From a virus, in the IMG/VR virus record IMGVR_UViG_3300011416_000008, positions 1 through 45,760 of that record: DNA of 45,760 nt; one strand, written 5' to 3'. Below the pieces are notes generated by a model, which saw nothing but the letters and a program-made list of their open reading frames with translations, did not search any database and was not told the origin of the DNA. The translations under genes were made by a program, and so were the position numbers. Each line of letters starts with the position of its first letter. Position 1 is the stretch's first letter. Below are positions 1-45,760 of this stretch, piece after piece.

Positions 1-123
1 GTTTAATTGTTTCCATGATTCATAAACTCTGGTTCAGGACGATTTGTCCAGGTCATTTGTTTTCCTTCAGATGCCCAAAGTAATTGTTTTGCTTTATAAT
101 AACGTCTATATTTTTCTACGTCA
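1..123. repeat. Terminal direct repeat, left copy
   Basis: Identical base for base to 45638-45760, so the sequence closes into a 45,637-bp circle. The repeat lies inside the 3' end of the 172-aa gene and the 5' end of the helicase gene, not in a non-coding end. It therefore most likely reflects circular permutation or an assembly overlap. Confidence 0.95.
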
Positions 124-3433: not shown

Positions 3434-3521
3434 TTGGTGCCAGTAATCGGACTCGAACCGATAAAGCTTTTCAGCCGACAGATTTTAAGTCTGTTGTGTT
3501 TACCAATTTCACCATACTGGC
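3434..3521 (-). tRNA. tRNA-Leu (anticodon UAA)
   Basis: The minus strand folds into a class II tRNA of 88 nt. The acceptor stem is GCCAGTA/TACTGGC (7 bp). The anticodon stem ACAGA/TCTGT holds the loop CTTAAAA, giving anticodon TAA. There is a long variable arm and a T stem ATCGG/CCGAT with loop TTCGAGT. CCA is encoded at the 3' end. The anticodon decodes UUA, a codon used heavily in this AT-rich genome, so the likely role is to supplement host tRNA during phage translation. Confidence 0.95.
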
Positions 3522-41387: not shown

Positions 41388-41635
41388 TCTGACAACTCCT
41401 CATGAAGTTTACGAGCAAACCAATCTGTGAGAATCATCTTATATTCACTGGTGTTCTTATTGTATGAGCCAGCTTCAATTTGTGAGTATGGAATCCATTT
41501 CGCTTTCGGCGGCTCAATCTTCTCTAAATCAATTTCTTCAATCTTTACAAGAACTGCTAAACCACTTGGTGAGTCTCGAACTTTAGTTCCAATAACTTCA
41601 GTTCCTCCAGTAAAACCAGTCCAAGTTGATCTCAT
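41384..41635 (-). CDS. Hypothetical protein, 83 aa
   Basis: ATGA-coupled on both sides. Contains Gly/Thr-rich N-terminus (STWTGFTGGTEVIG), acidic centre and a helical Trp-containing end. Not recognised. Confidence 0.65.
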   Translation of the reverse strand: MRSTWTGFTGGTEVIGTKVRDSPSGLAVLVKIEEIDLEKIEPPKAKWIPYSQIEAGSYNKNTSEYKMILTDWFARKLHEELSE

Positions 41636-41877
41636 AAATCTTCCAAATTAAAACGTTTTCGTACAATTTGCAGAGTAAAAGTAATTACAGGACCAGAGCG
41701 AGCTAATACAAGTCTCGCATACTGATCCTGTTCAGACAGAAGTAATTTATGTACTAAATCCTTCCACTTTTCTTTCTTTACTGCTTTTATAATTCGTGCA
41801 TGATAATGACGTGGTGAAGTAACAGAAACTCTCTGGTCTTGTTTTAATCTATTCCAGATCGTTTCATATTGCCGCAT
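41632..41877 (-). CDS. Hypothetical basic protein, 81 aa
   Basis: Basic protein with a likely DNA- or RNA-binding stretch (RHYHARIIKAVKKEKWKD). The only ATG is at 41877, and it lies inside an inverted repeat (41876-41912) with no visible ribosome site, so expression may be controlled by the RNA structure. First gene after the structured gap 41878-42142. Function unknown; autoregulation through that RNA is only a hypothesis. Confidence 0.65.
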   Translation of the reverse strand: MRQYETIWNRLKQDQRVSVTSPRHYHARIIKAVKKEKWKDLVHKLLLSEQDQYARLVLARSGPVITFTLQIVRKRFNLEDL

Positions 41878-41912
41878 ATTGAATTACACTGTATTTTAAT
41901 ACAATTCAATAT
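41876..41912. promoter_or_regulatory. AT-rich inverted repeat over the start codon of the 81-aa gene
   Basis: ATATTGAATT (41876-41885) and AATTCAATAT (41903-41912) are perfect complements, with an inner TGTAT/ATACA. The repeat includes the start codon at 41875-41877 in part, so the mRNA hairpin could block translation, or the site could be an operator. Confidence 0.55.
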
Positions 41913-41916
41913 TAGG

Positions 41917-42047
41917 TGTTCCCCAAATCTCTAAGCCGCTGGGCCTACGAACGTTTACGGTTACCGTGAAACCTTTTGCATCGTATCAGGATACCTAATA
42001 CCTTAATGTGCAAAAGCTGTAGGACGGTCCTCTGAGATTGGGGAACA
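41917..42047. ncRNA. Candidate structured RNA, 131 nt, multibranched
   Basis: Helices read from the sequence: P1 TGTTCCCC + AATCTC (41917-41931) with GAGATT + GGGGAACA (42034-42047), 14 bp with one bulged A. P2 CCTAC (41944-41948) with GTAGG (42019-42023), extendable by three pairs including a G-U. P3 GTTTACGG/CCGT-AAAC hairpin (41953-41972). P4 CTTTTGCA/TGCAAAAG (41973-41980/42009-42016), directly adjacent to P3 and holding a small GTAT/ATAC hairpin. The strand is uncertain: flanking genes run leftward, while one G-U pair mildly favours the plus strand. No known family recognised. Confidence 0.6.
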
Positions 42048-42071
42048 TAGAAATTATTTGGTAGTTATTAA

Positions 42072-42142
42072 CGAGGATACCAGCCTCGCGTTTCACTCAA
42101 TCGCTTCCGACGATTAATCCCCTAAGAGATCCTGAGTGAAAC
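42072..42142 (-). terminator. Two hairpins directly after the 225-aa gene
   Basis: GTTTCACTCA/TGAGTGAAAC (42090-42099/42133-42142) is a perfect 10-bp stem starting right after the stop codon, with an internal ATCG/CGAT hairpin. It is followed on the minus strand by CGAGG/CCTCG (42072-42076/42084-42088) and then TTAATAA. The second could be a weak terminator, the first a 3' stabiliser. Confidence 0.5.
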
Positions 42143-42820
42143 TTACAGATTTGCCAACGCTTCAGCCTTATCCTTCGCAGACAGAAGATCCTTAGCCTTC
42201 TTCCCAAGGAATTCGAGAACATCAACGAAATCCTCAGATTTATTGCCGGGCGCTTCCATATACATAGAAAGATAGGTGGCGAGCTTTTCCACAACTCCCA
42301 GATTGCCAGTCACATCACGGAACTTACGAACAAAGATTTGCGCAGCTTGTGCAACTGCCTCGGCAGACTTCCCAGTAACCGCAGGCATAACCTTGCAATA
42401 ATCCTCCGCAAATGCATCCCAAGTATCCTTGGAAATGCCAGCTCCACGACGAGAAGCACGATCCATATTTGCAATGAATTCCCAGGTGGCTTGATCCATC
42501 GGGAAATTGGCTTGCGAAATGTCTTCCTTTTCATTCACAATCGAACGAATTTGATCCTGATAAACTGCGTTAACAGCTTCTTGAATCAATGCGGCAGACT
42601 TGGACGGAACTTCAATTTGATTTCCAGCAGCATCCTTAATTGGATTGCCTTTTTCATCAACTCCAGGCATTGTGCCAGAACACAACTTAGCAATGGTTGA
42701 AAGAGAGATGGTGGGAACTACAATTTGAACTGCATCACGCTTGTTCCCGAGTTTATCTTCCTTGAATCGGAATTTGAACTCAGACAGAACAGTACCTTCC
42801 TGGACAGTAACTTCAGACAT
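42143..42820 (-). CDS. Probably highly expressed protein of unknown function, 225 aa
   Basis: An isolated gene with its own consensus promoter (42888-42916), AGGAAA ribosome site and G/C-rich third codon positions, which suggests strong expression. The protein has a strand-rich N-terminus (LSEFKFRFKED, DAVQIVVPTISL), then helices, VMPAVTGKSAEAVAQAA near residue 145 and a Lys/Ala-rich C-terminal helix. The layout and the W...F...VTGxS region resemble the 209-aa protein at 5151-5780, so the two may be distant paralogues. Followed by an unusually structured gap. Confidence 0.85.
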   Translation of the reverse strand: MSEVTVQEGTVLSEFKFRFKEDKLGNKRDAVQIVVPTISLSTIAKLCSGTMPGVDEKGNPIKDAAGNQIEVPSKSAALIQEAVNAVYQDQIRSIVNEKEDISQANFPMDQATWEFIANMDRASRRGAGISKDTWDAFAEDYCKVMPAVTGKSAEAVAQAAQIFVRKFRDVTGNLGVVEKLATYLSMYMEAPGNKSEDFVDVLEFLGKKAKDLLSAKDKAEALANL

Positions 42821-43981: not shown

Positions 43982-45653
43982 ACTTACCTTTGAAATACTC
44001 TGCTTTCTCGGAAAGTGTGTTTCCCTTAATTCTCTGAGATTGAATTCCTTTAACAAACGTCTCAGGTTCGCAAATAACATAAAGTTCCTCCTTGGCGCGG
44101 GTTACAGCAGTATATAACAACTCACGTTGCATCATAACTGCGTGAGATTGATGAAGAATTAAAAATACTTTTCTCCACTCAGAACCCTGTGCTTTGTGGA
44201 TTGTAATTGCATATCCATGAAGCATTCCATTTACTGCGGCGGCGGAATCAACCACTACTTCTTTTTCTGAATCTGAAAGGAGAATTGTAATCTTATGCGA
44301 ACATTGGCGGACCCGATCCTCTTTACTTCCTGCGACTTGAGACAAAACAAAATCAACGTCGTCAATTGATCCCTCGTTTTTGTATCCAGGTTCCTCTTTA
44401 GTTCCAACTCTGTGGCCCCAATAGTTAAGATTAATCGAGGGTTTGTTAAACGGTGCTCCTGAATAAGCCGGGTTAGTTTCAATACGCGTGATGACTCCAT
44501 CGTTTTTCTCATACATCACCTTATCACCTTCTGAATAATAAACTTTATTGTATCCAGCTACAATCTCATGCACAATTGCATTTCGTTTCCATGCAAGATG
44601 AGTTGCAATGTGCTTATTTACTTCTAAAGTTCCAAAGGCTTCATTAAATGGCATTAGAATCATATCTTCTTCAGGATCATAAGCTCCAGAATCCGCTCCC
44701 TGAGCAAAGAAATGTGCAATAGTCGCGGTTGCTGCCGTAGGAGATATTTTCTTCTTCCATGGGTGAATTTTAAGTTTCCCAGGGAAATGCCATTCTCCAA
44801 ATTCTTTTTCTTCAATTGGGACACCAGACAAGATTCTGTGTGCAAGACGAAGTATTGGAGATTCCAATGCCTGTCTGTAAACTTCTGTAAGTTCAATAAC
44901 ACGAAGGGTTTGAAGTTTGAATCCGAGGATAGCAGGTCCAAAGATAGGCGGCAACTGTTGAATGTCTCCCAGGAAGATTTCTTGGAACTCATGAGGCATT
45001 GCATCCTGATTTAATTTATAAAGATCAAGACCAAGCATTGAAGCTTCTTCATATGCAATTACTCGAACCGTCGATGAGATTGGATTGTATTTATGTCGCG
45101 CCGGTTCAAACTTCATTGTCTTTCTCATCTCACCAGTTTTTTCATCAAAAATCTCATAAATAACTGGCTCGAATTCAAGAAACTTATGGTTTGTTATACA
45201 GTTGGCTGCAAGATCTTCTGAAACATTCTTACGGATATTGTTAACAGCTCGTCTAGTGTAAGCTGTGATAGCAATTCCAGGTGTTCCTGCGTGAAGGTGT
45301 TTATGTCCGAAATCTGAGATAGGAGGAACTCTGCCCGATTTGATGAGCGATTCTGTTGCTGCGCGCATCGCAGTAGTTTTTCCAGTTCCTGCCGCTCCGA
45401 TAAGAACCACAGATTCTCCATTTGAGATTGCAGTAACAAATTCTGTTTGTCCTTCATTGAGTAATATCTCGTTTCCGTACTTATCAAGAGACTTAAGTCC
45501 GTGGGTTTCAAGTCCTGTGATAGATTCTTGATCATTTGAAATGATTGGAGTAGTTTCTTGTGAATTTTCCTTTTCCGTTGCTGCTCTAGCTGCTTTTCGT
45601 GCTTGGATTTTTGCATATAATGCCTCTAATGCAGAGGGTTTAATTGTTTCCAT
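43956..45653 (-). CDS. SF1 DNA helicase, RecD/Dda-like
   Basis: 565 aa. Walker A LIGAAGTGKTTAM (Lys92), Walker B YEEASMLG, motif III FLGDIQQLPP, and the C-terminal motifs YAITIHKAQGSEW and LLYTAVTRAKEELYVI of the UvrD_C_2 domain. These define a 5'-3' superfamily 1B helicase such as RecD or Dda. The first 90 residues are a charged extension. It would unwind DNA for replication or recombination with the nuclease and Sak4-like protein. The start overlaps the 172-aa gene across the circle junction. Confidence 0.93.
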   Translation of the reverse strand: METIKPSALEALYAKIQARKAARAATEKENSQETTPIISNDQESITGLETHGLKSLDKYGNEILLNEGQTEFVTAISNGESVVLIGAAGTGKTTAMRAATESLIKSGRVPPISDFGHKHLHAGTPGIAITAYTRRAVNNIRKNVSEDLAANCITNHKFLEFEPVIYEIFDEKTGEMRKTMKFEPARHKYNPISSTVRVIAYEEASMLGLDLYKLNQDAMPHEFQEIFLGDIQQLPPIFGPAILGFKLQTLRVIELTEVYRQALESPILRLAHRILSGVPIEEKEFGEWHFPGKLKIHPWKKKISPTAATATIAHFFAQGADSGAYDPEEDMILMPFNEAFGTLEVNKHIATHLAWKRNAIVHEIVAGYNKVYYSEGDKVMYEKNDGVITRIETNPAYSGAPFNKPSINLNYWGHRVGTKEEPGYKNEGSIDDVDFVLSQVAGSKEDRVRQCSHKITILLSDSEKEVVVDSAAAVNGMLHGYAITIHKAQGSEWRKVFLILHQSHAVMMQRELLYTAVTRAKEELYVICEPETFVKGIQSQRIKGNTLSEKAEYFKGKYGEGDFEE

Positions 45654-45760
45654 GATTCATAAACTCTGGTTCAGGACGATTTGTCCAGGTCATTTGTTTT
45701 CCTTCAGATGCCCAAAGTAATTGTTTTGCTTTATAATAACGTCTATATTTTTCTACGTCA
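45638..45760. repeat. Terminal direct repeat, right copy
   Basis: Identical to 1-123. It encodes the same 3' end of the 172-aa protein and the start of the helicase, and so only shows that the sequence is circular or circularly permuted. Confidence 0.95.

Follow-up and report, generated by a model that had tools for sequence, protein, structure and literature searches.

A folded RNA element between two early genes of an uncultured phage group, with a twin-arm module found in a second lineage

The window analysed here is the whole stretch of 45,760 nucleotides that makes up IMG/VR virus record IMGVR_UViG_3300011416_000008. The record is classed as linear and carries a direct terminal repeat of 123 bp (window 1–123 and 45638–45760), because of which the genome is probably complete at 45,760 bp. 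Two genes on the minus strand, one for a 225-aa protein and one for a basic protein of 81 aa, are separated by an intergenic region of 265 nt that contains, read 5' to 3' on that strand, a branched hairpin, an H-type pseudoknot, a multibranched element of 131 nt and an AT-rich hairpin. The entire intergenic region folds with a z-score of -7.3. The features of the locus are as follows.

42143–42820, minus: upstream 225-aa gene of a conserved family (26-member alignment)
42090–42142, minus: branched hairpin starting at the base after the 225-aa stop codon (fold)
42060–42088, minus: compact pseudoknot of the H type with the sequence CGAGG-CT-GGTA-T-CCTCG-TTAATAAC-TACC, diverged from a motif that is widespread in phages
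41917–42047, minus: 131-nt multibranched element with closing stem P1, three-way junction and arms P2 and P3 (fold energy)
42034–42047 (5' strand) with 41917–41931 (3' strand), minus: P1 closing stem, 14 bp with one bulge (predicted pairing only)
41953–42016, minus: twin-arm module (covariance-model match in another locus, L028:2796-2858, and pair changes)
42009–42016 with 41973–41980, minus: P2 helix, part of the module
41994–42001 with 41983–41990, minus: inner P2 helix with UAU triloop, part of the module
41964–41972 with 41953–41960, minus: P3 with 1-nt bulge, part of the module
41876–41912, minus: AT-rich hairpin with part of the 81-aa start codon in its 3' strand (fold; stem match to the type A model described below)
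41632–41877, minus: downstream gene for the 81-aa basic protein (12-member alignment)

Pfam, PHROG and PDB sequence and fold searches with the two flanking proteins returned nothing usable. Their AlphaFold models are fair, with pLDDT values of 86 for the 225-aa and 88 for the 81-aa protein; the model of the smaller protein had no structural match below E 0.001, and for the 225-aa family a comparison of folds gave one BFVD relative, A0A6G5YAE6 (E 7e-8). The neighbouring genes encode a Dda-like helicase, a Sak4-like annealing protein, an exonuclease and a dNMP kinase, which bears out the position between two early genes that an earlier note, made from the letters alone, had proposed for the 131-nt element. 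Of 21 loci, 20 give no Shine-Dalgarno match for the 81-aa gene, and in 16 of the 21 predicted folds some or all of its ATG is base-paired. A scan for promoters and terminators picked out neither a promoter-like site within the intergenic region nor a terminator-like one past the 131-nt element, a result that fits co-transcription with the flanking genes.

Read on the gene strand, the 131-nt element is a genuine structured RNA. Its minus-strand fold reaches -53.7 kcal/mol (z -6.93) and none of 200 dinucleotide shuffles is as good, compared with -47.6 kcal/mol (z -4.63) on the plus strand; the better-folding strand is also that of both flanking genes. The earlier note had the sequence and coordinates of the element right and lacked only the strand, and the refuting outcome that it named, a folding energy no better than that of shuffled sequence, did not occur. 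The 14-bp closing stem, the three-way junction and the two adjacent arms that it described are all present in the minus-strand fold, in which P2 and P3 adjoin with zero linker between them. The arm of 8 bp with a bulge corresponds to P3, which is predicted to consist of 4+4 bp, a 1-nt bulge and a triloop, and the perfect 8-bp arm corresponds to P2; beyond an internal loop the P2 arm carries another 8-bp helix, capped by a UAU triloop, and this helix had been missed, as had three short helices predicted between the closing stem and the three-way junction.

No open reading frame of at least 40 aa overlaps the element, and the test for a coding frame, named beforehand as a possible refutation, did not go against it. 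The covariance models of Rfam 15, including those for riboswitches, ribozymes, 6S, tmRNA, GOLLD, ROOL and pRNA, gave zero matches within 41850–42150 even at E<=10, in line with the earlier note, which could not match it to 6S, tmRNA, riboswitch or ribozyme families, and at the gathering score the sole Rfam match was a tRNA located elsewhere. ARAGORN did not class the element as a tRNA or tmRNA, its only match being a tRNA-Leu at 3435–3521. The element is present as a single copy in the genome. The earlier reading of a structured RNA without an Rfam family, located between genes of the early/replication region, is supported by these results.

A covariance model built from the 131-nt element alone, termed R2, was searched against about 1.4 Mb of phage loci (535 kb + 888 kb). 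Over the 535 kb of related and other phage loci there was one non-self match, at L028:2796-2858, with an E-value of 0.024 that is rough, as are all those from home-made covariance models; the further 888 kb gave no match at E<=5. L028 is a 225-aa/81-aa locus in which the match lies on the same strand and starts 17 nt past the 225-aa stop, ahead of the pseudoknot, whereas in the window the module comes after the pseudoknot. The match spans both arms only and about half of its letters are identical to those of the window. Between the two, both letters differ in 11 of 24 pairs, against 0–1 such pairs in slid controls, and pairing is kept in 93.8% of cells, so that the compensatory changes on which the earlier proposal had been made to depend do exist, for the arms only. 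The internal-loop letters TAAGG / CGAT, the UAU triloop and the 1-nt bulge of P3 are common to the window and L028, and U-G/G-U occur among the pairs kept on the gene strand. Adjacent arms, this internal loop and conservation of pairs mark membership in the twin-arm module, and both loci display them.

The E-value alone is modest, and the homology of the L028 arms is convincing because synteny, strand and pair changes come together. Since the match is limited to the two arms, the conserved core is the twin-arm module. A long closing stem around the L028 arms is absent and, there being no counterpart in that locus, the case for P1 is one of energy only. At the level of sequence comparison, the altered pairs show the twin arms to be under selection for pairing. 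The arms are found in two lineages only in the collections searched: a pattern search for near copies of the 131-nt element returned its own species and three chance coding matches, and one for the twin arms returned its own species, L028 and seven chance matches.

Searches with both flanking proteins identified about 30 distinct IMG/VR contigs with relatives of the two genes; BLASTN of the intergenic region against phages and plasmids gave weak short matches only, and tblastn of both proteins against named phages gave nothing. The intergenic regions of the relatives have a median z of -3.7, with z <=-3 in 14 of 22 as against 7 of 106 control windows, and the gene strand is the better-folding one in 16 of 19 extracted elements. 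Three other contigs, of the same species as the window, contain an identical 131-nt element. In L008, which is 90–93% identical over the aligned parts, the 131-nt element is missing while the first hairpin and the pseudoknot are kept; on our reading of the alignment, the closing stem of this branched hairpin survives the sequence changes. Other relatives retain both genes and carry different folded RNAs between them, namely an RNA that we term type A (12 loci) and tRNAs, the latter represented by tRNA genes in the intergenic region of L058.

Type A RNA has a long stem and a core of the form [A/C]TGGTAA - hairpin - ATCNANGCAKAAA. Its pairing is formed at 96/96 positions in P1, 36/36 in an inner CTG/CAG or ATG/CAT helix and 67/72 in P2, counts that come from a manual alignment guided by the structure, a procedure that favours pairing. 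A covariance model of type A, R1, found one copy each in 12 of 27 records searched, including one new member, and a type A pattern search of bacterial genomes gave four chance matches without the closing stem. The members are as follows.

L010, L015, L038, L039, L047, L050, L102, L183, L185, L189, L190, L191: type A loci
L076:374-481, minus: new type A member found with R1 (covariance model)

The copy in L189 lies on a GC-rich contig in a different context, unlike the others, which are in the 225-aa/81-aa intergenic region. Type A shares with the 131-nt element its phage group, the intergenic region in which it lies and a long closing stem, but it has another core (TGGTAA / ATCNANGCAKAAA), and the best R1 match inside the 131-nt element scores 4.1 bits, which is not significant, so that the element is not assigned to type A. 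The start-codon hairpin of the window reaches 18.4 bits with R1 (281-base search) through stem pairs only and is possibly a reduced type A. A further long-stem RNA, CATTGRAAC ... GCTGGNCAGTG, is seen at L059:3964-4153, at about 3720–3850 in L058, at about 8400–8490 in L190 and in L143; with 23.9 bits for the L059 copy with R1, it may be a type A variant. In L052 and L060 the first 120 nt past the 225-aa stop have in common the motif CCCASTARG..AATAYGAATAGTCTGRYCAACTA..YTGGG..GCAGGTCC..TCAAAC, which suggests another structured RNA.

The pseudoknot of the window retains the CT loop of a more general form, P1 - CT - GRRC - AT - P1' - A-rich - GYYC, with its stems swapped. Folds from RNAfold cannot include pseudoknots, and the Rfam scan of the loci gave no pseudoknot match, with models of this type covering small pseudoknots poorly. 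In 18 copies from the neighbourhood of the 225-aa gene, again aligned by hand with the structure in mind and hence in favour of pairing, P1 is paired at 78/90 and P2 at 72/72 positions, above all 5000 shuffles. The canonical form CCTGRRCATGANNNNAAACTG occurs in at least 120 stretches of viral contigs by pattern search, and 137 distinct further sites stand among the matches listed (phage contigs, L063-L182). This set is free of the bias of hand registration since the fixed pattern letters determine its frame; as the pattern itself fixed several letters, only those outside it count as evidence. Among these letters the third P1 pair is formed in 136 of the 137 listed sites, with all four Watson-Crick types common, the fourth is formed in 119, and 133 have exact Watson-Crick complementarity at both variable P2 pairs. 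In the 115 listed sites with an upstream frame of at least 60 aa, P1 never starts less than 5 nt from the stop codon and most often lies 5–6 nt from it. The sites often precede tRNA genes or the next start.

The genes upstream of the pseudoknots include a DUF932-like cluster (20 of 45 examined), for one of which DUF932 was confirmed by Pfam; from reading the sequences, we take others to encode SSB-like proteins, ribonucleotide reductase and Hsp20. Two Streptomyces phages with the same DUF932 gene have strong hairpins behind it and no pseudoknot of this consensus. Programmed read-through of the stop driven by the pseudoknot was rejected, the open frames past the stops being mostly short and variable. 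A type III antitoxin RNA was also rejected, since there is a single pseudoknot and no tandem repeat in the sequence, and none of the neighbouring proteins matches a toxin.

Any account of function has to accommodate what is observed, namely folding on the gene strand, pairs that are conserved in the twin arms as well as in the pseudoknot, and a position in the operon that is conserved too. Our leading explanation, to which we would give a little less than an even chance, is that the 131-nt RNA belongs to a multi-module non-coding stretch, co-transcribed with the 225-aa and 81-aa genes, and acts in cis. The 225-aa gene, the intergenic structures and the 81-aa gene would then lie on one early message. 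The pseudoknot and hairpins past the 225-aa stop would protect the coding sequence ahead of them at its 3' end. The downstream 81-aa gene, which has no Shine-Dalgarno sequence and has its start codon in a hairpin, would be insulated by the folded block. The twin-arm module with its fixed loop letters could be a docking site for a phage or host protein that tunes decay or translation. Against such a role in cis, the module is absent in L008 and only two lineages carry the twin arms; moreover, its shift relative to the pseudoknot is not obviously expected of a cis element with a fixed task.

A processed, stable, trans-acting sRNA is nearly as good an explanation, given that the position of the module shifts and that tRNAs and type A RNAs occur in the region as well. 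The closing stem would be cut, for example by RNase III, to release a 131-nt RNA that binds a host or phage partner, and the region would carry small stable RNAs as cargo. Loop letters that stay fixed while the stems are swapped would suit an RNA of this kind, as would a module that is ahead of the pseudoknot in L028 and behind it in the window, and a region that is also occupied by type A RNAs and the L058 tRNA genes. However, the scan gave the element no promoter-like or terminator-like site of its own, and L028 lacks the closing stem needed to set the ends of the RNA; we regard such an sRNA as possible, if somewhat doubtful. The element is bounded precisely by a near-perfect 14-bp inverted repeat, and L008 lacks it, which could also point to a small mobile insertion that has inverted terminal repeats, TGTTCCCCAA...TTGGGGAACA, and just happens to fold well. 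Such an insertion is very improbable, given its single copy in the genome and no clear target-site duplication in the sequence, and it is largely refuted by L028, which keeps the inner arms with compensatory changes and without the terminal repeats. Slightly less credible still is an element that acts at the DNA level, for instance as a single-stranded site of replication or recombination; although inverted repeats fold as single-stranded DNA too and the region sits among replication genes, the gene strand folds better in most of the elements, which lie in gene orientation, and U-G/G-U are among the kept pairs.

Some likeness to known phage RNAs is apparent. In T7, RNase III processing hairpins form long irregular stems between early genes, a setting like that of the 131-nt element, which differs in its conserved loop letters and covarying arms. 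GOLLD and ROOL are structured RNAs of phages and prophages found near tRNA genes, and many GOLLD members exceed 800 nt (PMC12286853). In the phage group described here, L058 likewise has tRNAs in the corresponding region, but GOLLD and ROOL are both far larger and the 131-nt element matches neither in Rfam. The pseudoknot of T4-type gene 32 mRNA is located 5' of its gene, where it acts as an autoregulatory binding site (PMC3014915). The pseudoknots here are similarly compact, of H-type and on a phage early/replication message, but they have other stem and loop lengths and lie 3' of genes (that of the window follows the 225-aa stop and the 137 listed sites are mostly close behind stops), and the gene 32 type was therefore rejected. 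A description of the element or the pseudoknot was not found in the searchable literature, which leaves most subscription journals outside, so that its absence is not proven.

The twin-arm module represents a new phage RNA domain with comparative support, and one intergenic region of an uncultured phage group holds several RNA families without an Rfam match. More speculatively, and with confidence well below even, we suggest that this phage group keeps an RNA island behind one conserved early gene and swaps unrelated folded modules in it (twin-arm, type A, other types and tRNAs), and that the tiny pseudoknot a few bases past stop codons is a widespread undescribed phage mRNA element. The stop-codon pseudoknot is common enough to be studied in laboratory phages, and it could explain how phage messages stay protected or apart.
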